Source of the DNA: Candidatus Binatia bacterium | Lineage (GTDB): Bacteria; Desulfobacterota; Binatia; UBA12015 | Direction: 5' to 3' | Length of the DNA stretch: 64,000 bases | Assembly: GCA_029243485.1 (NCBI GenBank) | Contig: JAQWRY010000007.1 | Span: forward strand, 1 to 64,000 | Part shown: one piece after another, positions 2,509 through 22,132 of the stretch | Numbering within the stretch: the first letter of the stretch is position 1 | Layout of the letters: each line of letters begins with the position of its first letter | Translations under genes and position numbers: made by a program | Notes under the pieces: generated by a model | What the model was told of the DNA's origin: nothing | Databases searched by the model: none | What the model saw: the letters and a program-made list of their open reading frames with translations, nothing else

Positions 2509-2713
2509 GGGACCGGATCCTCAATGGGAATGATATCACGGTTCCGGGGCTTGGAAAGAGAAGGTCCGCGCCGGCACGGGCCTGCGGGGGGCGCATGGCC
2601 GAAGCAATCGGGGTGGGGCGGAGGAAGTGAGTCCGAGGAAGCTTTGTGCTAGGTTCGCCCAGCGGGTCGCCTCCATTTTTTGGAGCAATCTTCGGCCCGG
2701 GAGCATTGCGAGT

Positions 2714-3466
2714 ATGTCCGGCCATTCCAAGTGGAGCACAATCAAGCACAAGAAGGCGGCGAAGGACGCCAAGCGCGGCAAGATCTTCACGAAGCTGATT
2801 CGTGAAATCACCGTCGCAACGCGCCTCGGCAACAGCGGAGACCCGAACTTCAACCCGCGCCTACGCACCGCGATCATCGGGGCCAAGGCCGCGAGTATGC
2901 CCAATGACAACATCGAACGGGCGATCAAGAAGGGTACGGGGGACGCCGGTGGCGCGGTCTACGAAGACGTCGTCTACGAGGGGTACGGTCCTGGTGGTGT
3001 CGCGCTCCTCGTTCGGACGCTCACCGACAATCGCAACCGCACCGTTGCCGATGTCCGCGGGGTCTTCACGAAGCACGGCGGAAACATGGGCGAAGCCGGC
3101 TGTGTGAACTGGATGTTCCATCGCAAGGGAGTTCTCTTGGTCGATCGGGCTGCGGTCGAGGAAGAGAGCCTGATGGAGCTCGCGCTCGAAGCCGGCGCCG
3201 AGGACGTCGCCGATTCCGGCGAGGTCTGGGAGATTACGACGGATCCCGAGGCCTTCGAGCCGGTCCGGGACTCGCTCGAGAAGGGCTCGATCGAGGTCAA
3301 CAGCGCCGAGATCGCGATGCTGCCCGAGAACACCGTGAAAATTGGAGGGACCGACGCCGAGAAGCTGCTGAAGCTGATCGACGCCCTCGAAGACAACGAC
3401 GACGTGCAGAGTGTGGCCGCCAACGCAGACTTTGACGAGGAGGCGCTGGCGCAGCTGGGAGCGTGA
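2714..3466 (+). CDS. yebC: YebC/PmpR family protein
   Basis: A 250-residue member of the YebC/PmpR/TACO1 family, known as transcriptional regulators or translation factors, often encoded beside ruvCAB as here. The start is the ATG of [14 protein letters not shown], the invariant N-terminus of the family; the frame extends upstream but without conserved sequence. Family hallmarks include the [13 protein letters not shown] segment and GYGPGGVA. Its stop lies 77 bases before the ruvC start chosen here, in what is probably a single transcription unit. Confidence 0.95.
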
Positions 3467-3543
3467 CGGTGGTCCGCGGAGGCCGCGGCGCGCGCAGGGA
3501 AGGTGGAGCCGCGATTGAACGCGGAGAGGGGTGGGGCCGGAAC

Positions 3544-4083
3544 GTGCGTGTACTCGGGGTCGATCCGGGATCGCGGAAGACGGGCTGGGGTTTGATCGAA
3601 GAGGCCGGCGGAGATCTGCGAAGCCTGGGTTCCGGCGTTGCTGCTTCGGGTAACGGCGAGATCAGCGAACGCCTCGCGAGGATCGGCGAACAGATTGAGG
3701 CGATCCTCGACGAGTGGAAGCCCAACGCCGTGGCGATTGAGAAGGCATTCGTGGGCAAGAACGTGGCGAGCGCGCTGCGCCTCGGCGAAGTCCGGGGGGT
3801 GATTCTGGCGAGCGCCGGTCGCCGTCGACTGCCGGTCGTCGACTATCCTCCGGCGACGGTGAAGGTGGCTGTCGCGGGGGCGGGCGCGGCAACCAAGGAG
3901 ATGGTCGCGCGCGGCGTGAGTGCTCTGCTTAACGTCGACGCGATCGCGGGTGACGCGACCGATGCTCTGGCGGTCGCGGTCTGTCATGTCCGTCACGACC
4001 GGTTCCGGAGTCGCCTGCGGTCGTCGACCGTCGTGGCTCCCGCCGTTCGTGCGCGCGTCCGCGTGGTGCGAGGCGGCCGATGA
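3544..4083 (+). CDS. ruvC: Holliday junction endonuclease RuvC
   Basis: A 179-residue endonuclease that resolves Holliday junctions with RuvAB. The GTG start gives the standard N-terminus VRVLGVDPGSRKTGWG with the first catalytic Asp. The acidic active site continues with IEKAF (Glu) and the DATDALAVAVCH segment (two Asp). An upstream GTG at 3463, overlapping the yebC stop, would add 27 unconserved Arg/Gly-rich residues; I prefer 3544. The gene overlaps ruvA by four bases. Confidence 0.94.
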   Translation: MRVLGVDPGSRKTGWGLIEEAGGDLRSLGSGVAASGNGEISERLARIGEQIEAILDEWKPNAVAIEKAFVGKNVASALRLGEVRGVILASAGRRRLPVVDYPPATVKVAVAGAGAATKEMVARGVSALLNVDAIAGDATDALAVAVCHVRHDRFRSRLRSSTVVAPAVRARVRVVRGGR

Positions 4084-4658
4084 TCGGCGGGCTGCGCGGC
4101 AAGGTCGCGCACAAAGAGCCCGGTCGTCTCCTAATCGACGTCGGCGGAGTCCTGTACGAAGTGATGGTGTCCCTGCAGGCCTTCTCGCAGCTCCCGAAGG
4201 AGGGCGCCGCGGTCAAGGTGGACGTCGTGACCCACGTTCGGGAAGACGCCTTCGTCCTTTACGCCTTCGTGGATCCCGCAGAGAAACTGCTGTTTGCCTG
4301 GCTGCGGGGCGTGAACGGGGTCGGTCCGAAGCTCGCCCTGAACATCCTCTCCGGGATTCCCGCGCAGGACCTGCGGGGCGCTCTCGGCGCGGGCGACGTT
4401 CCGCGGCTCTGCAAAATCCCCGGCGTGGGCAAGAAAATGGCCGAGAGGCTCGTCCTGGAGTTGAAGGAGCGCTCCGGGGAGCCCGCGGAGGTTCCCGGTG
4501 CAGGTCCCCCGGCCCGCGCGGCCGGCGAAGAGGCACTGTCGGCGCTCGTCAACCTGGGGTACAAACGGGCAGAGGCCGAACGAGTCGTGGAATCCCTGTC
4601 GCCTGACCTGTCTCTCGAGGAGACCATCCGGGAAGCTCTTCGGAGGTTTGCGCGCTGA
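4080..4658 (+). CDS. ruvA: Holliday junction DNA-binding subunit RuvA
   Basis: A 192-residue RuvA. The N-terminal OB fold starts [15 protein letters not shown]. It is followed by two helix-hairpin-helix elements ([13 protein letters not shown] and [17 protein letters not shown]) and a C-terminal domain ([15 protein letters not shown]) that binds RuvB. A low-complexity Pro/Ala/Gly linker separates domains II and III, as usual. It overlaps ruvC and ruvB by ATGA-type junctions, indicating translational coupling. Confidence 0.95.
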
Positions 4659-5722
4659 TGGCGCTCGATCCCGACGCGCCCGACCTGGATGAGGAGGACG
4701 CCGCGCCCGCCCCGGAACTGGGCCCCGCGGAGGAGGAGGTCCGGTTCGACGCCTCCCTGCGCCCGGAGGCCCTCGGCGACTACGTCGGCCAGGACGCGAT
4801 CCGCCACACGCTTGGCATCGCTATTCAGGCCGCGCAGGAGCGCGGGGACGTTCTCGACCACGTGTTGCTCTGCGGCCCACCCGGCCTGGGCAAGACGTCG
4901 CTCGCTCAGATCATCGCCCGCGAGATGGGTGTGCGCTGTCGCAAGACTCAGGGGCCGGCCGTCGACCGCGGGGGCGACCTCGCGGCAATTCTCTCCGATC
5001 TCGACGCAGGGGACGTCCTTTTCATCGACGAGATCCACGGCCTGCCGCGCAAGGTCGAAGAGGTGCTCTATCCGGCGATGGAGGACTTTGAGCTAGACCT
5101 GATCGTCGGGCAGGGGCCGACGGCCCGCAGCATGCGGCTCTCGCTCAAGCCCTTCACTCTGGTCGGCGCGACGACGCGCGCCGGCATGTTGGATGCGCCG
5201 CTGCGCGATCGGTTCGGTTCGACGTTTCGTCTCGAGTTCTACGCGGTGGCCGAGCTCGCCCGCATCCTGCATCGGTCGGCCGAGATCCTCGGCGTGGACC
5301 TGCGCGCGGAGGGAGCCGATGAGATCGCTCGGCGCTCGCGCGGCACACCGCGTATCGCGAACCGCCATCTGAAGAGAGTGCGCGACTACGGGCAGGTCGA
5401 GCACCCGTCTCGCCCGATCGACGAGAACATCGCAGCGGCCGGTCTCGAGTTGCACCGCGTGGATCCCGGCGGCCTCGAGCCGATGGACCATCAGATCCTC
5501 CTCGCCGTTCTCGATCGTTTCGACGGCGGTCCGGTGGGCGTCGAGAGCCTCGCCGCGATGCTCGGGGAAGAACGCGAGACGCTCGAAGCCGTCTACGAGC
5601 CGTTCCTCGTACAAGAGGGCTACCTGGAACGAACGCCTCGCGGTCGCATCGCGACTCGTCGCGCCTACGATCACTTTGGCCGGCAGGTGCCGACTGGGCC
5701 GCGCCAGGGCCGTCTTCTCTAG
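4658..5722 (+). CDS. ruvB: Holliday junction branch migration ATPase RuvB
   Basis: A 354-residue AAA+ motor. After an acidic N-terminal extension of about 30 residues come [11 protein letters not shown], Walker [10 protein letters not shown], Walker [10 protein letters not shown], sensor 1 VGATTRAG, the arginine-finger region LRDRFGS and the C-terminal winged helix. Some family-conserved spots are slightly changed, for example [10 protein letters not shown] where most RuvB have GPAIERPGDL, and [10 protein letters not shown] near sensor 2. These look like lineage variants rather than damage. It forms the ruvCAB operon. Confidence 0.95.
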
Positions 5723-5794
5723 CCTGATGCCGCTGCTCGGACGAACGTGGGTCCTCCTCGCCCTCGGGCCCGTCGCGATTCGGGGACTCAGGCG

Positions 5795-8083
5795 ATGAGC
5801 GACGACACCCAGAACGAGCCGTCGCCGGAACCTCCGGAAGGGGGGGAGGGCGCCGGTCGGTTGTGGCGTCGCCGCGAGGCGACTCTGCTCGTCGCGGCCA
5901 TCGCGGCTGCACTCTTCTTCCTCGTCTTCGAGACGCGGATGCCTCCGTTCTCCAGCAGTCAGACGGTGAGCCAGAACGTCGCGTTCTTCCTCCTCATCAA
6001 TCTGAACATCGTTCTGATCCTGCTGGTGGTGTTCCTGATCGGCCGGAACATCGTGAAGCTGGTCATCGAGCGTCGGCAACGGGTCCTCGGCTCGCACCTG
6101 CGAACACGGCTCGTCCTCGGATTTGTCGCCGTTGCGATCACGCCGGCCGTGCTGCTGTTCATCGTCGCGCTCGGGTTCATTCAAAGCTCGATTGAGAACT
6201 GGTTCTCGGTGCAGGTCGAGAGTGCACTCGAAGGCTCACTCGACATGTCGGAGACGTACTACCGCGAGTCGATGGCGACGGCGCTGCATCAGGCGCAGGA
6301 GTTGGCCAGACGGCTCGGCCCCGCGAAGCGGAAGCTCTCGGGGCAGAAGCGGTTGATCGAAGTGAAGCAGCAGGAGTACCAGGCCGCGACCGTGCAGATC
6401 TTCGACATGGAGGGGAAGCCGCTGGAGCGCGTCGAGGCCGCCGGCCTGAGTCCGAGTCTCAGTTGGCCGCCGTCCGAGGGTTTCCTGGCCCAGGTCATCG
6501 AGCACGGCGAGAGCGCCGAGGTCGTCGCGACTCCTGACGGCGAGATCTTGCGCGCTGCGGTCCGCATTGTGAGGAAGTCCGGGAAGACGCGCGGGATCGT
6601 CGTCGTCGAGCAGAGCGTTCCGAGGAGCGTGGAGCGACGCGCCGACGAGATCGAGCAGAGCTATCGGCAGTACAAGCAGCTCCGTCTGCAGCGGCGCCCG
6701 CTGATCAACAACTACGTCCTCACGCTCTTGTTGACGTCTCTCGTCGTCGTCTTCGGCGGAACATGGCTTGGCTTTACGATCGCTCGGAGCCTAACCGGCC
6801 CGCTCCAACGGCTGGCCGAGGGGACACGGCGAGTTGCCGAGGGCCATCTCGACGAGCAGATCCCGCAGGGGTCGGGCAGCGATGAGATCGCCACGTTGGT
6901 GACCGCCTTCAACCGGATGACCGCGAACTTGCGGACCACGCACACCGCGCTCGCGGAACGCCGGCAGGCCCTCGAGACGATTCTGGGCAACATCGCCGGT
7001 GGTGTGGTGTCGATCGATCGCCAGGCGAGAATCGAAACCGTGAACGAGGCGGCGCGCAGCATGCTCGGCATCGAAGAAGACGCGGTTGGGATGCCCTTTC
7101 GGCAGTGGTTCTCGAGTCCGCGCTTCGCCGCGATCCGCGAATTGCTATCCGAACTCGACAAGCGGGCGCAGCAGGGTATCTGGGAGAAGCTGCCGCCGCA
7201 GCGGATCTCGATCGAGCACGAAGACGGTGGCGCGGACATCCTCGCGTCCGGCGTCGTCCTGCGAATCGAGGAGGGCGATGCGGTCGGGGCTCTGCTGTTC
7301 TTCGAGGACATCACCGAGATCCGAAAGGTCCAACGCATGGAAGCGTGGCGCGAGGTCGCGCGCCGCATCGCGCACGAGATCAAGAACCCGCTCACGCCGA
7401 TCCAGCTCTCCGCGCAACGTCTGCGCAAGGTATACGCAGAGCAGCTTGGCGGATCCGTTTTGGATCAGAGTACGCGGACCATCATCGCCGAGGTCGAAGT
7501 TCTGAAGAACCTCGTGAGCGAGTTTGCGAACTTTGCGCGGCTCCCGTCGGGGCCGCACTTGCCGACGGACCTGAACGAACTCGTGGACGAGGCCCTCGGG
7601 CTGTTCCGTGAGGCGCACCGCCAGATCGGCTTCAAATTTGAGAGGGACGAGCGGGTTCCGCGGCTCGATCTCGACCGGGACGGCATCCGCCGCGTTCTCA
7701 CGAACATGTTGGACAACGGAGTCGCGTCGATCCTCCAGGCGCGCGGGCAGGACCCGGCCGTGGCCGCTGTCGCCGACGGTGAAGGGGAGGTCGTCGGGCA
7801 CATCACCCTGTCGACGCGGCTCGAGGCCAGCCGTGGTCTCGTCCGGCTCGAGATCGCCGACGACGGCTCCGGAATGTCCGCCGAGGTGAAGGCGCGGCTG
7901 TTCGAGCCCTATTTTTCCACCAAGGCGCAGGGGACCGGTCTGGGCCTCGCGATCGCCTCCCAGGTCATCGCGGATCACCGGGCGTTCATCCGGGTCCGGG
8001 ACAATCGGCCGCAGGGAAGCCGCTTCGTCATCGAGTTCCCTTACCGCCGGGCGGGCGCCCCGGGGGACGCCGGGCAGACCTGA
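5795..8083 (+). CDS. ntrY: NtrY-like transmembrane sensor histidine kinase
   Basis: A 762-residue membrane kinase. Three N-terminal membrane segments (about 27-46, 66-88, 105-130) precede an extracytoplasmic region, and a fourth lies near 305-330. Then come a HAMP domain, a PAS domain (about 385-500), a HisKA dimerisation domain with the phospho-acceptor His in IAHEIKNPLTP (about 525) and a HATPase domain (N box around DNGVAS, G1 DDGSGMS, G2 GTGLGLAI). This is the NtrY architecture, whose partner is normally the sigma-54 activator NtrX. Here the next gene, 96 bases on, has only the NtrX-type receiver joined to LpxC, so that fusion is the obvious candidate substrate. The start at ATG 5795 is preferred over GTG 5747. 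The stimulus cannot be read from sequence. Confidence 0.9.
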   Translation: MSDDTQNEPSPEPPEGGEGAGRLWRRREATLLVAAIAAALFFLVFETRMPPFSSSQTVSQNVAFFLLINLNIVLILLVVFLIGRNIVKLVIERRQRVLGSHLRTRLVLGFVAVAITPAVLLFIVALGFIQSSIENWFSVQVESALEGSLDMSETYYRESMATALHQAQELARRLGPAKRKLSGQKRLIEVKQQEYQAATVQIFDMEGKPLERVEAAGLSPSLSWPPSEGFLAQVIEHGESAEVVATPDGEILRAAVRIVRKSGKTRGIVVVEQSVPRSVERRADEIEQSYRQYKQLRLQRRPLINNYVLTLLLTSLVVVFGGTWLGFTIARSLTGPLQRLAEGTRRVAEGHLDEQIPQGSGSDEIATLVTAFNRMTANLRTTHTALAERRQALETILGNIAGGVVSIDRQARIETVNEAARSMLGIEEDAVGMPFRQWFSSPRFAAIRELLSELDKRAQQGIWEKLPPQRISIEHEDGGADILASGVVLRIEEGDAVGALLFFEDITEIRKVQRMEAWREVARRIAHEIKNPLTPIQLSAQRLRKVYAEQLGGSVLDQSTRTIIAEVEVLKNLVSEFANFARLPSGPHLPTDLNELVDEALGLFREAHRQIGFKFERDERVPRLDLDRDGIRRVLTNMLDNGVASILQARGQDPAVAAVADGEGEVVGHITLSTRLEASRGLVRLEIADDGSGMSAEVKARLFEPYFSTKAQGTGLGLAIASQVIADHRAFIRVRDNRPQGSRFVIEFPYRRAGAPGDAGQT

Positions 8084-8179
8084 ATCGGTAGGGCTTCCGG
8101 GCGGGTTTTCAGCTAGAGAAGGTCGAGCGCAGCCACTCGCGGAGATACGGGTCTCCGCCTACGGGAGAGAGAACGAGAG

Positions 8180-9433
8180 ATGTCGACCAACATCCTGGTC
8201 GTGGACGACGAAGAGAAGATCCGCGAGACTCTGCGCGGAGTGCTCTCCGACGAAGGCTACACGGTGTCCGACGCGGGCGACGGGCGGACCGCCCTCGATT
8301 CGCTGCGCGCCACGCGGCCCGACCTCGTCATCCTGGATGTCTGGCTGCCCGAGATCGACGGCATCTCGCTCCTCGAAGAGATCAAGCGCATCTACGCGGA
8401 CCTTCCGGTCATCATCATCTGCGGTCACGCGAATATCGAGGCCGCCGTTCGGGCCACTCGCCTCGGCGCGTCGGACTTCATCGAAAAGCCGTTCTCTCTC
8501 GACGCACTCCTCGCCTCGATCGCGCGCGCGCTCGGGAAGGGCGAGGGCGACGGTAGCTCGCCGGCCGAGTCGGTCGTTCCGCTCGCAAGCGATGGCGACG
8601 CGCAGAGCGTGCGCCCCCAGCGGACGATCGGCAAGAGCGTCGTGGCGAGCGGGCACGGGCTCCACACGGGAGTCCGAACCGGCGTTATCCTTCATCCGGC
8701 AGGCCCCGGCACCGGAATCGTGTTCCAAAGTCTCGCGACGGAAAAGTCGGTGCCGGCGCACGTCGATTTCGCCGACTCGACCGGATACGCGACCACGCTG
8801 TTCCGAGGCGGATTCGGTGCGAAGACCGTCGAACATCTCCTCGCGACACTGAACGCCTACGGCATCACCAACCTGATCGTGAAGATGGAAGGCGAAGTTC
8901 CGGCGCTCGACGGCTCCGCGCTCGGGTTCTGCCGGATGCTCGATGAGGCCGGCATACAAGAACAGGCCGGCGCCGGCATCAAGCTCTACGAAGTGGACCA
9001 GCGCTTCGAGGCTCGTGAAGAGAATGCGACGTTGGTCGTCGAGCCCTACGACGGTTTCGTGATCGACTACACGCTGGACTATCCGGCTCCCGTGGGTGAG
9101 CAGCGCTACGTGTTCGAGTATTCGGGACCGGAGTCGTTCCGTGATCAGATCGCGCCCGCGCGCACGTTTGGCTTCGTCCAGGAGTTCACGCAGCTTGCGT
9201 CCGTCGGGCTGGCGGCGGGCGGTCGTCTCGACAACTGCATCCTGATCGGTGACGACGGTGTGGTGAACGGGGAACTTCGCTTCGAGGACGAGTTCGTGCG
9301 CCACAAGATCCTCGATGTCATGGGCGACTTCGCCCTGCTCGGACGGCCCATCCGGGGCCGGATCGTCGCTCGCGCGACCGGTCATCGGCACAACGTCGGC
9401 ATGGTGAGGACACTCCTCGCAGCCGCGGCGTAG
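8180..9433 (+). CDS. lpxC: Receiver domain-LpxC fusion (UDP-acyl-GlcNAc deacetylase)
   Basis: A 417-residue fusion. Residues 1-120 form an NtrX-like CheY receiver: the acidic pair in VVDDEE, phospho-acceptor Asp in LVILDVWLPEIDG, Lys in DFIEKPFS. The Ser/Thr switch before GHANIE is Cys (IICGHA). A 30-residue linker leads to a full LpxC (about 150-415): GHGLHTG, zinc-site TVEHLLATL, LDGSALGF, ARTFGF, RHKILDVMGD and GHRHN are all present, so the deacetylase should be active. LpxC performs the committed step of lipid A synthesis, removing acetate from UDP-3-O-acyl-GlcNAc in the cytoplasm. The order kinase then receiver-LpxC suggests that phosphorylation tunes LPS output directly. The AAA+ and Fis domains of NtrX are absent. 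A purine-rich leader (GGGAGAGAGAACGAG) precedes ATG 8180. Confidence 0.93.
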   Translation: MSTNILVVDDEEKIRETLRGVLSDEGYTVSDAGDGRTALDSLRATRPDLVILDVWLPEIDGISLLEEIKRIYADLPVIIICGHANIEAAVRATRLGASDFIEKPFSLDALLASIARALGKGEGDGSSPAESVVPLASDGDAQSVRPQRTIGKSVVASGHGLHTGVRTGVILHPAGPGTGIVFQSLATEKSVPAHVDFADSTGYATTLFRGGFGAKTVEHLLATLNAYGITNLIVKMEGEVPALDGSALGFCRMLDEAGIQEQAGAGIKLYEVDQRFEAREENATLVVEPYDGFVIDYTLDYPAPVGEQRYVFEYSGPESFRDQIAPARTFGFVQEFTQLASVGLAAGGRLDNCILIGDDGVVNGELRFEDEFVRHKILDVMGDFALLGRPIRGRIVARATGHRHNVGMVRTLLAAAA

Positions 9434-10165: not shown

Positions 10166-11068
10166 CTAACGGAGGGAAGGCGAGGCGAGCGAGCCGCGGA
10201 CCGCCCAGCCCTTCTGGCCGCTCTTGCGCGGGGGGAGTAGCGAGGTGGCGACGCGAAGCCCGGGCCGCGCGTCGGCCGCGACGTCGAGCTGGAAATCGAT
10301 GTTGAGTACGCTTCGCGCCGCCGGGTCTCGAACGAGGACGTCGCCGGTGGCCGCGACGGTCACTTCGTCGCCCGCCGCCTCGAACTCGTCGATCTGCAGT
10401 CGTGCGCCCTGGAGTTCGGCATCGAGCCGCACGGTCTGGAAGGTGAGATCGGGCACGGTAAAGCCCTGCGCGATGATGCCTTCGAGAGACACGTTCTTCG
10501 CGCGTAGCTTGATCTTCCCCTTCGAACTCTGCGTGCTGCGCCCGTCGCCGGACAGCTCGAGGTCGAGGGAGGCCGTTCCTCCGAGGGCGCCGGGCGAGGG
10601 CAGGAGGCGTCGGGACAGCTTGGCCAGGGAGACCTCGTCGAGTCTGACGCTCGTGTCGACCTTGCCGTTGGTGGTCTGAACCGTGCCGTCGAAGGTCCCG
10701 TCGTACAGACTCCCGGAGAAGTCGGCCGAATCGATGGGGCCGAAGAGGACGCCGAGAAGCGGGGTGCTGACAGTGATCTCGGAGATCTCTGCCATGTACT
10801 GCGGCGTCTCTCGGTGCGAGAGGCGTACGTTCTCGAGTCGGTATCCGCTCGGGAAGGAGAAGGCGACGTCCTCGAAGACGACGCGCACGGGGATCTCGCG
10901 TGTGGCCTCGTCGATCGCGCGTCGAGCGATCAGCTCGTGCGGCAGTCCGAACAGCAGTGCGATGACGAGCATGGCGATCGTGAACGCCCCATAGCCCAGG
11001 ACACCCTTCCACGGGCCGATGACCTGGCCGAGACGGCCGAGAGAAACACGGGTCAAAGTGGGGGTCAT
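10166..11068 (-). CDS. gspN: Type II secretion protein GspN
   Basis: A 300-residue inner-membrane protein, last gene of the minus-strand gsp operon. It has one N-terminal membrane segment (about 23-42) and a periplasmic beta-rich region resembling AsmA-like and GspN proteins (repeated LENVRLSHRE, DSADFSGSLYDG and GTASLDLELSG strands). GspN is a non-universal accessory of type II secretion. It overlaps gspM by four bases. The assignment rests on position plus this fold-like pattern. Confidence 0.82.
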   Translation of the reverse strand: MTPTLTRVSLGRLGQVIGPWKGVLGYGAFTIAMLVIALLFGLPHELIARRAIDEATREIPVRVVFEDVAFSFPSGYRLENVRLSHRETPQYMAEISEITVSTPLLGVLFGPIDSADFSGSLYDGTFDGTVQTTNGKVDTSVRLDEVSLAKLSRRLLPSPGALGGTASLDLELSGDGRSTQSSKGKIKLRAKNVSLEGIIAQGFTVPDLTFQTVRLDAELQGARLQIDEFEAAGDEVTVAATGDVLVRDPAARSVLNIDFQLDVAADARPGLRVATSLLPPRKSGQKGWAVRGSLASPSLR

Positions 11069-11637
11069 CGCGGGCTCAGGCGGGCGACGACGAGGGTCGC
11101 GTCGATCAGAGATGGATCTTTGTACTCGCGCTTGAACGCTGCGCGCGAGAGGCGCATCGGCGGGTCCTTGTACTCGATCGTGTAGAGGAGCTCGATGACC
11201 TCGCGAAGAGGCACGGCCTCGAGCCGCATGTCGACCAGGTCCTCTTCGAAGTTCTCGCCGATCTGGCGGCTCGACGGATTCATCGAGACGATTCGCTCTC
11301 GGCCGACGATCGGCACGGTCGTGGACTCGAGCTGCGAGAAGAGCGAGGCGCCGCCGTTGGAGCCGTCGCCGCCGCCCTCGAGGTCCGCCACGGCGTGGCG
11401 GAGAGTCCGATACCGTTCGGCCAGCGCGTTGATCGAGGCCGCGTCGCGCTGTGCGATGGCGATCTTTCGGTCGAGATCGGTGAGGGTGTTGGTCATCGGC
11501 TCGTACACCCCGAGCCAGAGGATGAGTACAGCGGCCACGCCCATCGCGCCGTAAAGCATGCTCCGTTCGCGTGGTTGGAGACCGGCGAGAAACTCGGTCA
11601 CCTGGGCACGCGGGCCTGCGAGAAGCCGCTCGATCAT
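11065..11637 (-). CDS. gspM: Type II secretion protein GspM
   Basis: A 190-residue GspM. A short cytoplasmic start is followed by one membrane helix (about 30-47, MGVAAVLILWLGVYEPM), a coiled-coil region of DLDRKIAIAQRDAASI type, and a periplasmic ferredoxin-like domain. GspM binds GspL and GspE at the inner-membrane platform. A Gly-rich loop (EGGGDGSNGGAS) interrupts the periplasmic part. Overlapping stop-start junctions join it to gspL and gspN. Confidence 0.88.
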   Translation of the reverse strand: MIERLLAGPRAQVTEFLAGLQPRERSMLYGAMGVAAVLILWLGVYEPMTNTLTDLDRKIAIAQRDAASINALAERYRTLRHAVADLEGGGDGSNGGASLFSQLESTTVPIVGRERIVSMNPSSRQIGENFEEDLVDMRLEAVPLREVIELLYTIEYKDPPMRLSRAAFKREYKDPSLIDATLVVARLSPR

Positions 11638-13004
11638 CCGGCGGTTCCTTCCTCGAACTCGATCGCGGTGCGGAACTCGATGCGATCGTCGATTCCCTTC
11701 TTCACGTCGCGGACGTCGGGCTCGACCGCGCCGGGGAGATCGTGGAGCGCGCGTTTGATGACGTCGACCGACTCGTAGGTGTCAGTCCGTCCGCGAAAGC
11801 GGACACTCTCTGCGTCGATAGAGAGCTCCTCGATCTCGAACGGGGTCGTCGCGGGTACGGCCTGGTTGATCAGGCGCAGTACATCGAGCACAGGGGGGCG
11901 CGCTGCACTCGAGCCGCCGAGCATGGCGCGGCGGCGTTCGAGGCCCTGTACCGCGCCCTCGAGGCGGATGCGCTCCTGGCCTACCGGGGCGTTCGAGGCG
12001 ATCGGTGCGACGGTTGTCCGGATCTCTTCGCGGAGCGCGGAGAGTTCAGAATTTCGTTCGGCCACGACGATGCCATAGCTGACGAGTCCGAGAAGGATCG
12101 TTACGGCCGCAACGGCAGCCGTCTGCCGAAGTTGGCGTCGCGCCTCTTCGCTCGGGGCGTGATACACGAACTCGCCGGTGCGGAAGTTGACGCCGGTCGG
12201 CGCGACAGCGGCCGCCCTCGCGGCGAGGGCAACAGCGCGGAGGCTGCCCGGGTGAACGTCTGCGGCCCAGGGCGGTAGCGCCTGGTTCAACGGGACGGCA
12301 TCAACGCCGAGCGCTTGGGCGGCGCCCACGGAGTCCTCGGGTACCGCGACCTCGACGACCGCCGGGAGTTCGTCCTCGCCGACCAGGGTGAGAGCGAGCC
12401 AGCGGACCTCTCGCGCGAGGGCATCTCGGTCGAGGCCGCCGAGGGTGTGGAGGCCGCGAAGCTGTCCATCGCGGATCAGGGCGACCACACCCCCCGGCCG
12501 CGGCTCGACGACCAGGGCATCGGGTCGCCCGAGCGCCACGAGACCGGCAAGGGCGAGGGCGCCGACGTCGACGACAGCGGGGTCGACATTCGCCTCCGCC
12601 AGTTCCTGCAGATGGCGCGCGAGCGCATTGCGCGGCGTGAGCGAAGCGAGGAGATCGGAGCCGCTGGTCTTGGAGAGGACCGTGTACGTCGTGACGGCCT
12701 CGTCGAGCTCGAACGGGACGAGGCTCTCGAGTTCGAACGGGACGGTCGCGTTCAGCCGGGCCGGCTCGGTGAACGGAAGGTGCAGGAGCCGGTGCGTGAC
12801 AACGCCCTCCTCGAGTGCCGTCGCGATCGCGTCGGGCGCGGTCGAGCAGTGCTGCTGGATGGCCGCCTGAAGCACGCCGGCGCGCTCGTCTTCGGACCCG
12901 CACGGGACGACCCACGGGCCTCCGACCTCGGGGCTTCGCCCCGCGGTATCGAGGACTGCGAGCACGAACCCGCCCTCCACCCGATCCACACCCAGCGCAC
13001 GCAT
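11634..13004 (-). CDS. gspL: Type II secretion protein GspL
   Basis: A 456-residue platform protein. The cytoplasmic domain (actin/PilM-like fold) occupies about the first 310 residues, followed by one membrane helix (TAAVAAVTILLGLVSYGIV) and a periplasmic ferredoxin-like domain. GspL recruits the ATPase GspE to the membrane. I start at the ATG of MRALGVDRVEGG; an upstream in-frame start would add 12 basic residues. It ends four bases inside the gspM start. Confidence 0.88.
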   Translation of the reverse strand: MRALGVDRVEGGFVLAVLDTAGRSPEVGGPWVVPCGSEDERAGVLQAAIQQHCSTAPDAIATALEEGVVTHRLLHLPFTEPARLNATVPFELESLVPFELDEAVTTYTVLSKTSGSDLLASLTPRNALARHLQELAEANVDPAVVDVGALALAGLVALGRPDALVVEPRPGGVVALIRDGQLRGLHTLGGLDRDALAREVRWLALTLVGEDELPAVVEVAVPEDSVGAAQALGVDAVPLNQALPPWAADVHPGSLRAVALAARAAAVAPTGVNFRTGEFVYHAPSEEARRQLRQTAAVAAVTILLGLVSYGIVVAERNSELSALREEIRTTVAPIASNAPVGQERIRLEGAVQGLERRRAMLGGSSAARPPVLDVLRLINQAVPATTPFEIEELSIDAESVRFRGRTDTYESVDVIKRALHDLPGAVEPDVRDVKKGIDDRIEFRTAIEFEEGTAG

Positions 13005-13009
13005 CCGGC

Positions 13010-13957
13010 TCAGGGTACCCCGCCGGGGCCGACTCCCCAAACGGGGCGTTGCTTCCAGGAGAGGGGCGCTTTGCTCTTCACCTCGACGATGGCCTCGACG
13101 GATTGGGTCGCGTCACCGACGATTGCCGTCGAGATGATCGAGTAGACCTTGCTGCGGTCGAGGTTCTTCGGCTTGGGCTTGGTGCCGCTCGGGCAGTTCT
13201 CCTCTTCGAGCCACGCCCGGACGTCGTCCGACGTCCGCGGGGGCGCCGACAGAGCATCCGTATTCTCGCACCCGATCGCCCGGAGGACCTCGGGTGGGGC
13301 GGTGCGGACGTTGATCCCTTGGTCTCCCTTCTTCGCGGGGAAGGCCGTGATGAACGGGCGGAGCTGGCCGAGGACGGCATCGGTGAATCCGCGGATCGTG
13401 CGGAGGTCGTCGATGGATTGGAGTTCGCCTCGTCGCGGCTCGCACGGGATCGGCAGGGAGCAGTCGCCGCTCAAGCTGCGTAGGTTCCCGTCCTCGCTCA
13501 CCTCGAGGCGGGCTTGAACCGACTGAAGCAAGCTTGGGTCGAGGTCCAAATCGGCAAAGAGGTTCTCGAAGGGCTCGGGGTTGTCGAGCGCGTCGTTCAG
13601 GTTCAGACGGCCGACCTCGTCGCGGATCGCGATCTGCATCATGTGCCCCTGGGCGGTGGGCAGGCTCAGCGGGGACGCGTCGATAAAGGTGTTCACGAAG
13701 CCGCGCACCTGATCATCGCTCACCCCGAGTGCTTCATGCGCCCCGACCTGTCCGGAGCGCGCGAGAAGTTGGGCCGCCATGGCGTTGCCGGCGTTCCGCG
13801 TGAGGTGGCTGTGCACGAACGTGGCGTCAGTCATCTCGACGACGATTAGCGTCAAGAGTGCGACGGAGAGCAGCGCGGACAAGAGCGCAAGGCCTTGTTG
13901 GTCCCGGAGCGTCTTTGCGAGCACGCCGCCGTTCACGCGATGTCGGCGGGGGTGCAC
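13010..13957 (-). CDS. gspK: Type II secretion minor pseudopilin GspK
   Basis: A 315-residue GspK, the large minor pseudopilin capping the pseudopilus tip. The prepilin-like start (QQGLALLSALLSVALLTLIVVEM) lacks the usual Glu at +5, a known GspK feature. A large periplasmic insert follows, with helix-hairpin-helix-like segments (LNLNDALDN and the LRTIRGFTDAVLGQLRPF stretch). Translation may start at GTG 13957, overlapping the gspJ stop, or at a GTG seven codons later. Confidence 0.9.
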   Translation of the reverse strand: MHPRRHRVNGGVLAKTLRDQQGLALLSALLSVALLTLIVVEMTDATFVHSHLTRNAGNAMAAQLLARSGQVGAHEALGVSDDQVRGFVNTFIDASPLSLPTAQGHMMQIAIRDEVGRLNLNDALDNPEPFENLFADLDLDPSLLQSVQARLEVSEDGNLRSLSGDCSLPIPCEPRRGELQSIDDLRTIRGFTDAVLGQLRPFITAFPAKKGDQGINVRTAPPEVLRAIGCENTDALSAPPRTSDDVRAWLEEENCPSGTKPKPKNLDRSKVYSIISTAIVGDATQSVEAIVEVKSKAPLSWKQRPVWGVGPGGVP

Positions 13958-14583
13958 TACTGCGCCCCCATCGGCAGGGTCACCGTCGTGCGGTAACTCG
14001 TGGGGACGGCCGTGCCGTCGTCGACGGAGAGCGTGAGGCGGACGGCGCGGGGCACCTCGGCCGAGGGCTCCTGTTGCGTGAGCCAGCTACCGCCGGGCGG
14101 CAGGAGTTCTGCCTGGAAGGACTGCACGTCTTCGAGCACCAGCATCGTCACGGGCTCGACGCCTTGCGCGGCGACCGACGGGAGCTGCTGCTTCATGAGC
14201 AGCATGGATCCCGGGCGGTCTGGATCGCGTTCGAGGTAATATCGAACGACGTCGATGGGGTCGCGGGCTCCGCCCTGGACGCGGCGGGCTCCTGTGGTTG
14301 CGAACCGAAGCTCGCTCGCCGGTTCGTCGAACGTGCGGTCGAGTAGGGAAAACCGAAGCCGCTCGTCGTCGAAGGCGAGGGCACCCGTGAGTTCCTCCGA
14401 CAGCCGCATGAGCGTGATCCGTGCGGCCGAGGACATCTGGACGGATGCTTCCGCCCGGTCGCGGCTCTCGATCGTCTGCTGGAACGGTGTGACCTGCGCG
14501 ACGACAATGATCGCGAGGATCGAGATTCCGACGAGAAGCTCGAGCAGCGTGAAGCCCGCCTCGGCTGGGTTGTGGGGAGTCAT
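13957..14583 (-). CDS. gspJ: Type II secretion minor pseudopilin GspJ
   Basis: A 208-residue minor pseudopilin. It starts at the ATG of MTPHNPAEAGFTLLELLVGI, giving a short leader, the prepilin peptidase site AG/FTLLE and the N-terminal hydrophobic helix. The C-terminal body has the beta-rich pattern of GspJ. It forms the tip complex with GspI and GspK. ATGA overlap with gspI; no prepilin peptidase gene is present in the window. Confidence 0.9.
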   Translation of the reverse strand: MTPHNPAEAGFTLLELLVGISILAIIVVAQVTPFQQTIESRDRAEASVQMSSAARITLMRLSEELTGALAFDDERLRFSLLDRTFDEPASELRFATTGARRVQGGARDPIDVVRYYLERDPDRPGSMLLMKQQLPSVAAQGVEPVTMLVLEDVQSFQAELLPPGGSWLTQQEPSAEVPRAVRLTLSVDDGTAVPTSYRTTVTLPMGAQ

Positions 14584-14969
14584 GACGTCCGAACCCAGAG
14601 CGTGAGTTCCGCGGCGCCGCCGATTCCGTCGGGCGGGATCACACGCACGGTGACCTCGCGCACGTTCTGGAAGAAGCCGGGGGTGCTGACGTACAGTTCC
14701 CACAGATAACCCGGGAACTCGCCGGGGTACTCCCCTTCGAAATCGCCGCGCGTCTCGCCGACATCCGGCGCACCCTGCAGCTCGATCTGGGCGAGCCTTT
14801 CGCGGGCGAGGAACAGAGATTCGGTGTAGCTCCGCTCTCGCGCGATCGTCTTCAGGTTCTGCGCGTGAAGGCCGAGGAGAGCGGTGAACGCCGTCGCGAG
14901 AATTGCGAGGGCGACCATGACCTCGAGGAGCGTGAAGCCGCGCTCCCCGCGTCGGGTTCGGCGGTTCAT
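14580..14969 (-). CDS. gspI: Type II secretion minor pseudopilin GspI
   Basis: A 129-residue minor pseudopilin starting MNRRTRRGERGFTLLEVMVA, with a basic leader, the cleavage site RG/FTLLE and the GspI-typical LALARERLAQIE-like stretch (here FLARERLAQIELQG). It lies between gspH and gspJ, overlapping both by four bases. Confidence 0.92.
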   Translation of the reverse strand: MNRRTRRGERGFTLLEVMVALAILATAFTALLGLHAQNLKTIARERSYTESLFLARERLAQIELQGAPDVGETRGDFEGEYPGEFPGYLWELYVSTPGFFQNVREVTVRVIPPDGIGGAAELTLWVRTS

Positions 14970-15523
14970 CGCAGCGAGCCCATGAGTCCGGTTGGGATGT
15001 CGTCGTCGTCGAGGATGCGGGCGCGCGTGCTCACCGGATCGATCACGACGGCGACCCGTCTCCCGGCGCCGTCGTCGAGCCACAGGAGTGCGGGGTCGGC
15101 GTAGCCGTCGGGAGAGAAGAGGGTGGTGTCGTAACCTTCGGTGCTCGCGGTGACGCCGGGGCCTTCGACGCTGATTTGGATGGGATCGGGGACGGTGATC
15201 TCGCGGTAGAGCGGTGTGTCGATAGGCGCGAAGCGGACGCCGCCTGCGGATGGGACGAGCCCTTCTGCCCGATACGTCCCGCGTTGCGGGTTCACGGCAA
15301 GGCGAATCCACCGGTTTCGGATCGCGGCCTCCTCCCGAAGGAACTGCACGCGTGTCGCGAGACGGCGCGCGCTCGAGTCGAGAGCCGCGCTACTGAGTAC
15401 GCCGACGCGCGGTACGACGAACGCGACGAGCAAGCCGATCAGGCCCATCACGACGGCGAGCTCGATCAGCGTGAACCCGGCATGTCGTAGGGTCTCGGCC
15501 CGCGGGCGGGCCGGCAGGATCAT
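14966..15523 (-). CDS. gspH: Type II secretion pseudopilin GspH
   Basis: A 185-residue pseudopilin with leader and cleavage site HAG/FTLIELAVVMGLIG, followed by the GspH-type SSARRLATRVQFLREEAAIRN helix. The C-terminal body is beta-rich, ending in segments such as DPALLWLDDGAG. GspH is thought to link the tip complex to the GspG shaft. Joined by ATGA overlaps to gspG and gspI. Confidence 0.9.
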   Translation of the reverse strand: MILPARPRAETLRHAGFTLIELAVVMGLIGLLVAFVVPRVGVLSSAALDSSARRLATRVQFLREEAAIRNRWIRLAVNPQRGTYRAEGLVPSAGGVRFAPIDTPLYREITVPDPIQISVEGPGVTASTEGYDTTLFSPDGYADPALLWLDDGAGRRVAVVIDPVSTRARILDDDDIPTGLMGSLR

Positions 15524-15972
15524 CCCAGATCTCTCGAGTCGACGTCGGCGGCCGGACCCTCGCCGCCCTCGGCTCCGTCCGCGCCGAACGAGATGATGAC
15601 GAAATTCCCGCCGTCACTTTGGAAGACGTATGGCAGGTCCCACGGGTCGGCGGGGATCTTGGACAGGTAGCCGTCGGGGTTCCACCGACGCGGCAGCATG
15701 CCACTGGTGGGGGGAAGAACGAGCGCTTCGAGTCCCTGATCGGTCGTCGGATAGAAACCGTTGTCGAGCTTGTAGAGATGGAGAGCCTGCTCGATCGCCT
15801 TGATGTCGGCGGCGGCCTTCGTCTGCCGTGCTTCGTCGGTGCGGCCGAGGATGCGGGGGGCGACGAGGGTGATCAGTAGGCCGAGGATGAAGACCACGAC
15901 CATGATCTCGATGAGGGTGAAGCCAGCCTGGTGGCGGCTTCGTGGTACCAAACTCTGCATGCGGTCGATCAT
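15520..15972 (-). CDS. gspG: Type II secretion major pseudopilin GspG
   Basis: A 150-residue major pseudopilin. The prepilin signal ends QAG/FTLIEIMVVVFILG. The body has the GspG signature: KAAADIKAIEQALHLYKLDNG, FYPTTDQGLEAL, DPWDLPYVF. The acidic C-terminus (GADGAEGGEGPAADVDS) matches the calcium-binding loop of the family. Met1 and Met5 are both possible starts; cleavage makes the difference small. Confidence 0.94.
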   Translation of the reverse strand: MIDRMQSLVPRSRHQAGFTLIEIMVVVFILGLLITLVAPRILGRTDEARQTKAAADIKAIEQALHLYKLDNGFYPTTDQGLEALVLPPTSGMLPRRWNPDGYLSKIPADPWDLPYVFQSDGGNFVIISFGADGAEGGEGPAADVDSRDLG

Positions 15973-15981
15973 CCCACGAAT

Positions 15982-17196
15982 CTACCTGACCAGCGAGTTG
16001 ATCTCGAAGATTGGGAGGAGGATCGCGAGCACCACGAAGATCATGACTCCGCCCATCACGACGATCATGAGGGGCTCCAGGACGGCGGTGAGGCCGGCGA
16101 GGCTGCTCTCCACGTCTTGCTCGTAGGCGTCCGCCACGCGCTCCAACATGGGCTCGAGCTCGCCCGAGCGCTCGCCCACCGCGATCATCCGGGTGAGTAG
16201 CGGGGGAAAGAGCCCTGAGCGCCGAAGAGGTTCGGCGACGCTCTGGCCCTCGCGGATGGCCGTGCGGGCCTCTTCGATTGCTCCGCGCAGCGCTTCGTTG
16301 CCGATGACGCGCCCGGCGAGTTCCAGCGCCCCAAGGAGCGGGATCCCGTTTCCGAGGAGGGTGGCGAGCGTGCTGGAGAAGCGAGCGACCGCGACCTTGG
16401 TCAGAATCGGACCGACGAGCGGCGTCGAGAGCAGCTTCCGATCGACCCACGCTCGCCCATCGGGTCGTCGGACGATCGCGGTCCCCGCCGCGATCAGCGC
16501 AAGGAGGATCAGGAGCAGGAGCCACCAGCTTTCGGTGATCGCGTTCGAGGCGCCGAGCAAGATGCGCGTCAGCAACGGAAGCTCGGCCTCCTGATCGGCG
16601 AAGATCCGCGTGACTTTCGGTACGACGAAGCCGAGCATCAGGAGCACGATGCCGCCCGAGATGCAGCTCATGATCACGGGGTAGGCGAGGGCGTTCCGTA
16701 CCCGGGCCCGCAGGCGGGTCTGCGCTTCGGTGTGCGTCGCCAATCGTTCGAGAACGAGGTCGAGGGCTCCGGCGGTCTCGCCGGCGCGGACCATGCCGAC
16801 GTAGAGTTCGGGAAAGACGGTCGGATGTTCGGACATCGCGTCCGCGAGCGACGTACCCTGACTCACGGCGTCGCGCAGATGGGAGAGGACGCGCGTGGCT
16901 GCCGGCCGTTCGGACTGTTCGCCGACCGCGGAGATCGCCTCGACTACCGGGATGCCGGCGGAAAGAAGGGTCGCGAGCTGACGGGAGATCAGCGCGAGGT
17001 CGGCGCTCGTGACGCGCGCGCTCGGTCGCCACGCTAGCGCCGCTCCCTGCGGTGACGTCGACTCTTCGACGACCTCCGTCGGATAGATGCCGCCCTTGCG
17101 CAGTCGCGACCGCGCGCTTCGTGCGCTCTCGGACTCGACGACGCCTTTGACGTTGCGGCCGCCCTCGTCGAGGCCTTTGTATGCGAAGACCGGCAT
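15982..17196 (-). CDS. gspF: Type II secretion inner-membrane platform protein GspF
   Basis: A 404-residue polytopic protein with the two GspF repeats. The first begins ISRQLATLLSAGIPVVEAI (about 68-190) and the second FSSTLATLLGNGIPLLGAL (about 270-390). Each is followed by a membrane helix, with the third helix at the C-terminus (LMIVVMGGVMIFVVLAILL). It couples the GspE motor to pseudopilus growth. Nine bases separate it from gspE upstream and gspG downstream. Confidence 0.94.
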   Translation of the reverse strand: MPVFAYKGLDEGGRNVKGVVESESARSARSRLRKGGIYPTEVVEESTSPQGAALAWRPSARVTSADLALISRQLATLLSAGIPVVEAISAVGEQSERPAATRVLSHLRDAVSQGTSLADAMSEHPTVFPELYVGMVRAGETAGALDLVLERLATHTEAQTRLRARVRNALAYPVIMSCISGGIVLLMLGFVVPKVTRIFADQEAELPLLTRILLGASNAITESWWLLLLILLALIAAGTAIVRRPDGRAWVDRKLLSTPLVGPILTKVAVARFSSTLATLLGNGIPLLGALELAGRVIGNEALRGAIEEARTAIREGQSVAEPLRRSGLFPPLLTRMIAVGERSGELEPMLERVADAYEQDVESSLAGLTAVLEPLMIVVMGGVMIFVVLAILLPIFEINSLVR

Positions 17197-17205
17197 CGAT
17201 CAGGT

Positions 17206-18807
17206 CTAGGTGACGATGTCTTCCTGCGTGACCCGGAGGACTTCGGCGACGGTCGTCGTTCCTTCGGTCACCTTCTCGGCACCGTCGTCGCGAAGGGTCC
17301 GCATGCCGCGGCTCGTTGCGAGCTTTCGGATGGCGGCGGCGTCGCTGCGTTGCATCACGAGGGTTCGCACATCGTCGTCGACCGGCAGAAGTTCGTGGAT
17401 GCCGCTTCGTCCGCGGTAGGATGTGCCTTTGCAGTCCTCGCAGCCGGGGCCCTCGCCGAAGATCTCGGTGCCGGTCGGGATTCCGAGCTCCCGCTCGGTC
17501 TCGGCGGTGGACGTTTCAGCGACCCGGCACGTCGGGCAAACCCGACGAACGAGGCGTTGGGCCATGACGCCGTTCAAGGAGGAGGAGACGAGGAACGGCT
17601 CGATCCCCATGTCTATCAGGCGCGAAAGCGCGCCGAACGAGTCGTTCGTGTGCAGCGTGGAGAACACGAGGTGGCCGGTGAGCGCCGCCTGGATCGCGAT
17701 CTCGGCGGTCTCGGGGTCCCGGATTTCGCCGACCATGATCACGTCGGGATCCTGCCGCAGGATCGACCGCAGGCCGCTTGCGAACGTGAGGTCGATCTTC
17801 GGGTTCACCTGGATCTGTCCGACGCCGTGCAACTGATATTCGATCGGGTCTTCAATCGTGATGATGTTCCGCGAGCTCGAGTTGAGGCGGGCGAGGGCGG
17901 CGTACAAAGTCGTGGTCTTGCCGCTGCCGGTGGGGCCCGTGACGAGCAAGATGCCGTGGCTTTTCTCGATCAGACGCTCGAGGTCGTCCAGGTTGGTGCC
18001 GAGGAGTCCGAGGTCTTCGAGACGGAGAAGCGCGCCCGTTCGGTCGAGAAGACGAAGGACGGCGCGTTCGCCGAACTGCGTCGGGACGATCGAGACACGA
18101 ACGTCGATGTCGCGTCCGGCGACGCGGAAGCGAAGTCGACCATCCTGCGGGAGGCGCTTCTCTGCGATGTCGAGCCCCGACATGATCTTGATTCGGGCGA
18201 CGATCGTCGGGTGGTAGCGACGCGGTGGCTTCAGGACGTCATAGAGGATCCCGTCGATGCGAAAGCGCACCGTGACGTCGCGCTCGAAGGGCTCGATGTG
18301 GATGTCCGAGGCGCGGTCCTTTACGGCCTGGAACAGAAGCGAGTTCACGAGCCGAATGATCGGGGCATCGTCGTCGGCGTCGAGTAGATCTCGCGGTTCC
18401 TCGAGTTCGTGGGCGACTTCGTCGAGGCCGCCTTCCTGGATGTCGCCCATGACCGCCTCGGCCGAGCCCTGTGCGTCGTCGTAGGCCCGGTTGATGCTGT
18501 CGAGGATTGCCGCCCCGGGGACGACGACTGGAACGATCGGACGCTGGAAGAGCGCGCGCAGGTCGTCGACGATCTGGGCTGCCCGCGGGTCGGCAAGGGC
18601 GATCTCTACGGCTCCGTCGTCCCGTTGACTCAGCGGAAGGCAGGCCGCGCGTCGCGCGTACTGAATCGGGAGCCGTGCGACGAGCGCAGGGTCGAGTTGG
18701 GACGCCTCGATCGTGTCCCGGAACTCGAGGCCGAAGCGGTTGGCGAGAGCGCTCGCGGTCGCGGAATCGGGTAGGCCCGCGGGTACCTCCGCGACGTCGT
18801 CCGCCAT
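17206..18807 (-). CDS. gspE: Type II secretion ATPase GspE
   Basis: A 533-residue ATPase driving pseudopilus assembly. The N-terminal domain (RFGLEFRDTI, LPLSQRDDGAVEIALADP) is the GspL-binding T2SSE_N type. The motor has Walker A GPTGSGKTTT, the Asp box IEDPIEYQL, Walker B RQDPDVIMVGEIRD and the His box GHLVFSTLHTNDS. The tetracysteine zinc site (CPTC, CEDC) typical of GspE is present. It starts at the ATG overlapping the gspD stop. Confidence 0.95.
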   Translation of the reverse strand: MADDVAEVPAGLPDSATASALANRFGLEFRDTIEASQLDPALVARLPIQYARRAACLPLSQRDDGAVEIALADPRAAQIVDDLRALFQRPIVPVVVPGAAILDSINRAYDDAQGSAEAVMGDIQEGGLDEVAHELEEPRDLLDADDDAPIIRLVNSLLFQAVKDRASDIHIEPFERDVTVRFRIDGILYDVLKPPRRYHPTIVARIKIMSGLDIAEKRLPQDGRLRFRVAGRDIDVRVSIVPTQFGERAVLRLLDRTGALLRLEDLGLLGTNLDDLERLIEKSHGILLVTGPTGSGKTTTLYAALARLNSSSRNIITIEDPIEYQLHGVGQIQVNPKIDLTFASGLRSILRQDPDVIMVGEIRDPETAEIAIQAALTGHLVFSTLHTNDSFGALSRLIDMGIEPFLVSSSLNGVMAQRLVRRVCPTCRVAETSTAETERELGIPTGTEIFGEGPGCEDCKGTSYRGRSGIHELLPVDDDVRTLVMQRSDAAAIRKLATSRGMRTLRDDGAEKVTEGTTTVAEVLRVTQEDIVT

Positions 18808-21961: not shown

Positions 21962-22132
21962 GTCCGTACCATGAACTATCCGATTCTCGCAGACCTGCAA
22001 GTAATCGGCTCGTATCACCGCGGGGCGGGACTTCTGGGGGAGGCTCGCGTTGACGGGGCACGGATTGGACGGTTACTGTGGGCTGATACCCGCGGGCCTG
22101 ATGGTGAGGATGCCCGCTCGAGCCGAGTCCCC

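Follow-up and report, generated by a model that had tools for sequence, protein, structure and literature searches.

The locus described here raises the question of whether a membrane kinase could control the committed enzyme of lipopolysaccharide (LPS) synthesis directly, through a receiver domain built into the enzyme. It lies in a 64,000-nucleotide stretch of a Candidatus Binatia genome (contig JAQWRY010000007.1, positions 1 to 64,000; hereafter the window), in which a gene at 8180..9433 (+) runs from ATG to stop without interruption and encodes 417 amino acids plus the stop. A domain search of this protein bore out an earlier note on the same DNA, which had read it as a single frame joining an NtrX-type receiver to a complete LpxC. 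Pfam places a receiver (Response_reg, PF00072; 108.6 bits against a cut-off of 30.2) at residues 5-114 (8192..8521, +) and LpxC (PF03331; 274 bits against a cut-off of 27; profile positions 1-267 of 268) at residues 147-413 (8618..9418, +), and the NCBIfam lpxC model TIGR00325 agrees (244.4 bits against 187.25). A linker occupies residues 115-146 (8522..8617, +), and only four residues follow the LpxC domain, judged by its Pfam end. NtrX is the best named relative of the receiver in NCBIfam, with a match confined to positions 2-119 of the 452 in NF051870, a model that spans receiver, AAA+ domain and helix-turn-helix; scoring 137.4 bits against a cut-off of 600, the window protein fails that model. 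By these profiles it is not an NtrX and is NtrX-like in its receiver alone; as had been proposed, the domain search found no DNA-binding output in it, and LpxC stands in that place.

Conservation identifies in the receiver the acidic pair D9/D10 (8204-8209, +), the acceptor D53 (8336-8338, +) and K103 (8486-8488, +), together with C81 (8420-8422, +), which replaces the usual switch Ser/Thr. The LpxC domain carries E218, H219, H375, K376, D379, D383 and H402, which we take to be the metal and catalytic residues of LpxC, as well as T329. Out of 1758 PDB matches, those listed (50) are without exception LpxC chains, at 33-38% identity. An AlphaFold2 model built from a 21-row alignment has a mean pLDDT of 88.5, and the only run of three or more residues with pLDDT below 50 falls at 122-130, in the linker; its pTM of 0.88 gives only a hint of how the domains are arranged. 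The fusion gene is the sole PF03331 match in the assembly, which is 97.5% complete, and because the genome has this single LpxC, the fusion protein is suggested to have deacetylase activity.

Upstream of the fusion gene, across a gap of 96 bp (8084..8179, +), lies the gene of an NtrY-like membrane histidine kinase of 778 amino acids (5747..8083, +), as had been described. Pfam recognizes NtrY_N (34 bits against a cut-off of 23.2), HAMP, PAS, HisKA and HATPase_c in it, all above cut-off, and hydropathy and motif inspection add four hydrophobic peaks, an H-box at His543 and ATP-site motifs. The kinase is the only NtrY_N match and the only NtrY-like kinase in the genome. Together with the fused receiver it would make a simple two-component pair, for which the earlier term 'phosphorelay' is unwarranted. 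A survey of NtrY next to LpxC across genomes, which the earlier note had suggested, found the same arrangement within the class (Binatia): in all 17 class genomes tested, NtrY_N gives a single match and the window kinase a single homologue at 1e-40, immediately upstream of the fusion. Among the individual genes compared (rows), a script found the adjacent kinase in 34 of the 40 class rows with sequence. In five others (L006, L008, L021, L022 and L125) the adjacent kinase is present, masked from the script by long stop-to-stop frames, and the last (L013) starts at the first bases of its contig.

An artefact of assembly or reading frame, including a stop hidden by a sequencing error, is ruled out by the relatives. 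Both domains are spanned, by a match from residue 5 or below to residue 402 or above, in 133 of 148 class genomes, including three single-contig genomes (G029, G061 and G126), and 132 of these have no internal stop; the exception, from the same genus (G002), has one in-frame TGA within the LpxC part. A second start yielding LpxC alone was also considered. The only in-frame ATG, GTG, TTG or CTG codons between codons 57 and 160 are GTG144 and GTG155, and a simple Shine-Dalgarno pattern flags neither; it also fails to flag the ATG at codon 1, and hence is a weak test. By that test no supported internal start was found at codons 57-160, and the genome has no separate LpxC.

The class-wide search makes the receiver-LpxC architecture near-universal in the class. 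At 1e-40, 140 of the 148 genomes match the fusion protein, with seven partial copies besides the 133 that span both domains, and eight have no match. Contig ends account for six of the seven partial copies: three (G103, G109 and G133) are truncated by them, and three (G073, G078 and G140) lie at contig base 8, 67 and 1; the seventh is G062. Among the genomes without a match, the kinase match extends to contig base 2 in G003 and base 32 in G065, and the contig stops 1 and 233 bases past the kinase match in G039 and G066; neither the kinase (1e-40) nor the fusion was found in G012, G049, G100 and G101. True gene loss is thus not supported as the explanation of the misses, which are mostly contig ends. 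A search for LpxC in 20 relatives gave one match each in 16, the fused gene every time, and none in G003, G012, G039 and G049. Among the 148 matches listed, one LpxC-only match lies away from known contig ends; it is a second match in G136 (C171:1544-2371, 40% identity), found beside a full fusion, and reflects either a genuine extra copy or contamination.

The fusion is neither unique to the class nor recent, neither of which the earlier note had foreseen. Across the phylum sample, 372 of 395 genomes match at 1e-30. Among the matches listed, all 16 class members are fused, 35 non-class genomes align over both domains (G441 to residue 384), the match in one (G357) covers residues 2-280, and another 39 align in LpxC only, with frames of 448-820 residues and best E values of 8.8e-74 or lower. 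All 27 sequences fetched from those 39 genomes have a receiver in the same frame: in 13 a linker of about 50-67 residues joins it to LpxC and in 14 the two are some 300-350 residues apart, and in the five proteins of this long kind scanned, Pfam found Sigma54_activat and AAA_lid_14 every time. We refer to the latter architecture as receiver-AAA+-LpxC. A scan of named genomes with receiver patterns adds, among the matches listed and by depositors' titles, this long form in Nitrospinaceae, Nitrospinota and Desulfomonile; the same titles put receiver-LpxC in Deltaproteobacteria, Thermodesulfovibrionia and a record titled Bacterium. Of the 20 phylum genomes listed without a match, 11 belong to one family (f56), of which two other genomes do match; LpxC there is divergent or absent. 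Outside the class, no adjacent NtrY-like kinase is seen in 39 of the 41 rows with receiver-LpxC or in 9 of the 17 with receiver-AAA+-LpxC, some of these loci being cut short, and NtrY homologues occur somewhere in the genome in 25 of 27 cases (20 of 22 with receiver-LpxC and 5 of 5 with receiver-AAA+-LpxC). One genome (G525; 75% complete) has two receiver-LpxC genes (L161 and L162) on its contig 1 and no NtrY homologue at 1e-50.

We compared residues across 125 rows, which, leaving out one partial sequence (L106) and one with an in-frame stop that was thus called unfused (L004), comprise 98 fused and 25 unfused rows. Some are duplicate genes: L032/L033 equal L014/L030, and the Desulfomonile receiver-AAA+-LpxC gene (L040) is identical to that of a same-phylum genome (L144), which places that Desulfomonile genome in the phylum of the window; NCBI assigns Desulfomonile to Thermodesulfobacteriota. 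The motifs named in the earlier note are not only present but kept throughout, with D9, D10, D53 and K103 of the receiver in 98 of 98 fused rows, and E218, H219, H375, K376, D379, D383 and H402 of LpxC in every row, fused (98) or unfused (25); at position 329, 96 fused rows have Thr and 2 have Ser. The switch position at the end of receiver strand 4 is Ser in 76 fused rows, Thr in 11 and Cys in 11; the Cys rows are those of the window protein's own family, which thus lacks the customary Ser/Thr. This Cys had not been foreseen, and it counts against a signalling role; it may make the switch redox-sensitive in that family.

The AAA+ part, absent from 81 fused rows, shows selective decay where it persists. 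Walker A Lys is kept in 17 of 17 receiver-AAA+-LpxC rows (64 of 72 standalone NtrX-like rows), whereas Walker B Glu is found in 0 of 17 (62 of 72 standalone) and Walker B Asp in 5 of 17 (63 of 72). Of two Arg positions, the first holds Arg in 66 of 72 standalone rows, whereas in receiver-AAA+-LpxC rows Arg falls outside the four commonest letters there. Loss of GAFTGA was dropped as a mark of decay, the standalone NtrX consensus also being without it. A helix-turn-helix-like tail is kept, by eye, in 11 of the 17 rows and missing in 6; Pfam named no helix-turn-helix in the five such proteins scanned. The 11 (L137-L143, L146, L147, L149 and L150), in which this tail precedes LpxC, are possible transcription-factor-enzyme chimeras.

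Fused LpxCs also differ from unfused ones within the enzyme. Beyond the LpxC domain, the C-terminal tail measures 3-20 residues in the 98 fused rows, compared with 18-55 where LpxC is unfused (24 rows, L045 left out) and 31 in Escherichia coli, a difference with a U test p of 1.9e-14 among rows that, being descended from one ancestor on the fused side, are not independent. Tails of 3-20 residues leave the fused LpxCs without a tail of the E. coli kind that carries the FtsH degron. Eleven LpxC positions are near-fixed in fused rows and rare in unfused ones, including G168 and C251 (98 of 98 fused rows each) and K235 (97 of 98; mostly Glu or Asp in unfused rows). These positions fit a contact between the domains, although common ancestry alone could give both the positions and the short tails. 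Between the domain profiles, the linker varies from 24 to 67 residues in 81 rows, which speaks against a rigid coupling of receiver to LpxC.

The fused LpxCs sampled form one anciently fused branch of LpxC. In a quick tree of 88 LpxC domains, from which 37 of the 125 rows were omitted (near-copies, L004 and L106), one branch with support 100 parts 63 fused from 25 unfused domains, implying one change; in a careful tree of 67 hand-picked rows rooted with E. coli LpxC (68 rows), the 47 fused rows are a clade (support 100/99). Receiver-LpxC and receiver-AAA+-LpxC are intermixed on both, with three to five changes between them. In a receiver tree of 115 columns, fused receivers group with those of NtrX, separated from 15 other regulators (support 83, subject to a long-branch warning), and they are not united there, with four changes. 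Independent fusions are disfavoured by the single change on both LpxC trees, whereas the receiver tree fails to support a single origin. Between gain and loss of the AAA+ part the trees do not discriminate. We prefer loss, because the AAA+ part sits between receiver and LpxC in the NtrX order and its motifs have decayed.

Unfused neighbours point to a likely ancestral setting in which lpxC stood beside ntrY and ntrX. By record titles, a separate lpxC near ntrY and ntrX occurs in Rokubacteria, Acidobacteria, Thermoanaerobaculia, Desulfuromonas, Deltaproteobacteria and Syntrophobacteraceae, with lpxC-ntrY-ntrX as the prevailing order. Receiver patterns brought in the majority of these loci, so their number implies no frequency among all genomes; of 14 unfused phylum loci fetched without a receiver pattern, 5 also contain an NtrX-like receiver (above 110 bits). 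In Syntrophobacter fumaroxidans, the operon of a regulator orthologous to Desulfovibrio DVU2934 is reported to be immediately preceded by lpxC (PMC3333781). Four genomes with separate lpxC, ntrY and ntrX have a best NF051870 match of 494-512 bits and a next match of at most 426, and the maximum is 418 bits in the 17 class genomes and 407 in two receiver-AAA+-LpxC genomes; none of these 23 genomes passes the cut-off of 600, making the comparison relative rather than absolute. By that measure, no full-length NtrX-like regulator stands out in the 17 class genomes. From such a setting, an NtrX regulator linked to lpxC would have become joined to LpxC, and its AAA+ and DNA-binding parts would then have decayed and been dropped in several lines, including this class.

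We propose that the window protein is a response regulator with LpxC as its output, and that NtrY phosphorylates the receiver and thereby controls LpxC, a reading to which we assign a probability of about 0.6. The membrane kinase would sense a signal, autophosphorylate at the predicted His543 and pass the phosphate to Asp53, whose phosphorylation would change LpxC output without a transcription step, perhaps within seconds as the earlier note supposed; activation and inhibition are both possible. Phosphotransfer from NtrY and its effect on LpxC are what we infer from features that can be read in the sequences themselves: the protein's anatomy, the kinase adjacency, the conserved phosphorylation site and catalytic residues, the decayed AAA+ motifs and the short tail. 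The phosphorylation site is invariant (98 of 98), although Walker B Glu has gone (0 of 17). The sole LpxC, the class-wide fusion, the upstream NtrY, the lack of an outstanding NtrX, the single LpxC branch, the short tail, the pTM of 0.88 and the link between NtrYX and lpxC in alphaproteobacteria also count in its favour; the missing adjacent kinase in most fusions outside the class and the ununited fused receivers count against it.

Other roles for the receiver would explain parts of this evidence. It might set the location of LpxC, docking it on the membrane protein NtrY so that phosphorylation releases or recruits the enzyme with catalysis unchanged. A membrane kinase adjoining the fusion in 17 of 17 class genomes and a variable linker would suit such a tether, but a plain tether would need less than a whole phosphorylation site kept in all 98 rows, and receivers as a rule bind their kinases only briefly. 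Placement of LpxC at the inner membrane by a LapB homologue in Neisseria (PMC12444477) also fits; overall we consider this role unlikely. We regard control of the enzyme's lifetime as likewise improbable: here phosphorylation would hide or expose a protease site, taking over from the C-terminal tail that E. coli uses for FtsH. The tails, short in fused and long in unfused LpxCs, agree with this, as does the control of E. coli LpxC by proteolysis (PMC3333781 and PMC12444477). No protease site has been identified in fused LpxC, however, and the short tail may be a single event in the one shared ancestor of the fused rows. Nor is a short tail proof of new control, because alpha- and betaproteobacterial LpxCs are without the degron that E. 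coli LpxC carries at its C-terminal end and yet are unfused (PMC12444477). The LapB zinc ribbon (PF18073) cannot decide the matter: besides 15 of 17 class genomes, it turns up in 10 of 14 controls, Gram-positives among them, and so does not discriminate.

The receiver could also be a leftover of an old NtrX-LpxC chimera that aids folding or stability and signals no longer. The Cys at the switch position in the window's family and the missing adjacent kinase in most fusions outside the class are what such a relic might show. D9, D10, D53 and K103 are nevertheless invariant in every fused row, in proteins whose AAA+ part, where present (17 rows), has always lost Walker B Glu and is lacking altogether in the other 81, and we think this explanation very improbable. 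Returning to the phosphorylation-controlled enzyme, we give even odds to a longer history in which an ancient fusion turned NtrYX, which elsewhere lowers lpxC transcription, into a direct switch on LpxC by way of chimeras with decayed AAA+ parts, ending as the sole, phospho-controlled, short-tailed LpxC of nearly the whole class.

Among the closest known systems is NtrYX itself, which lowers lpxC transcription in two alphaproteobacteria, Rhodobacter sphaeroides and Caulobacter crescentus (PMC12444477 and PMC7240162). Kinase family, receiver family and affected gene are alike; in those bacteria NtrX acts as a free-standing transcription factor and the lpxC transcript changes, whereas here the receiver lies within LpxC and a full-length NtrX was not found. 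Upstream of R. sphaeroides lpxC, no site for NtrX is reported (PMC7240162), so NtrYX may act on its transcription only indirectly; the fusion would make the regulatory link direct. Desulfovibrio DVU2934, from a related group, likewise brings lpxC under two-component control, but as the product of a separate gene that binds DNA and acts on transcription, unlike the fused receiver (PMC3333781). E. coli LpxC, under FtsH/LapB control, is the same enzyme at the same committed step, unfused and with its 31-residue tail where the window protein has four residues. LpxC also occurs in a two-domain fusion in LpxC/FabZ (NCBIfam PRK13188), where a 3-hydroxyacyl-ACP dehydratase takes the place of the receiver; with 191.4 bits, the window protein stays well below that model's cut-off of 465.

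Response regulators with enzyme outputs are well known, CheB and GGDEF regulators among them, and share with the window protein the order of receiver followed by catalytic domain; the output here is an essential biosynthetic enzyme. No description of a response regulator with an LpxC output was found in full-text searches, in a collection outside which most subscription papers fall, and domain databases may list the architecture uncommented. Direct two-component control of LpxC would therefore be a regulator output without a description in the literature searched. Should the receiver act on LpxC, a two-component system would directly control LPS synthesis across a large group of mostly uncultured bacteria, and the near-universal fusion suggests that most sequenced relatives in the class could place the LPS-committing enzyme, and with it membrane building, under a direct signal. 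The series from separate lpxC, ntrY and ntrX through NtrX-LpxC to receiver-LpxC would record a transcription factor turned into the regulatory domain of an enzyme, and a single purified protein together with a single kinase domain would suffice to put the question to the test.

The surroundings of the pair add two observations. Directly upstream of the kinase, at 2627-5722 (+), Pfam recognizes RuvC and RuvB, accompanied by YebC- and RuvA-like frames. About 700 bp past the fusion gene, frames at 10166-22190 (-) resemble, by eye, a type II (general) secretion cluster.
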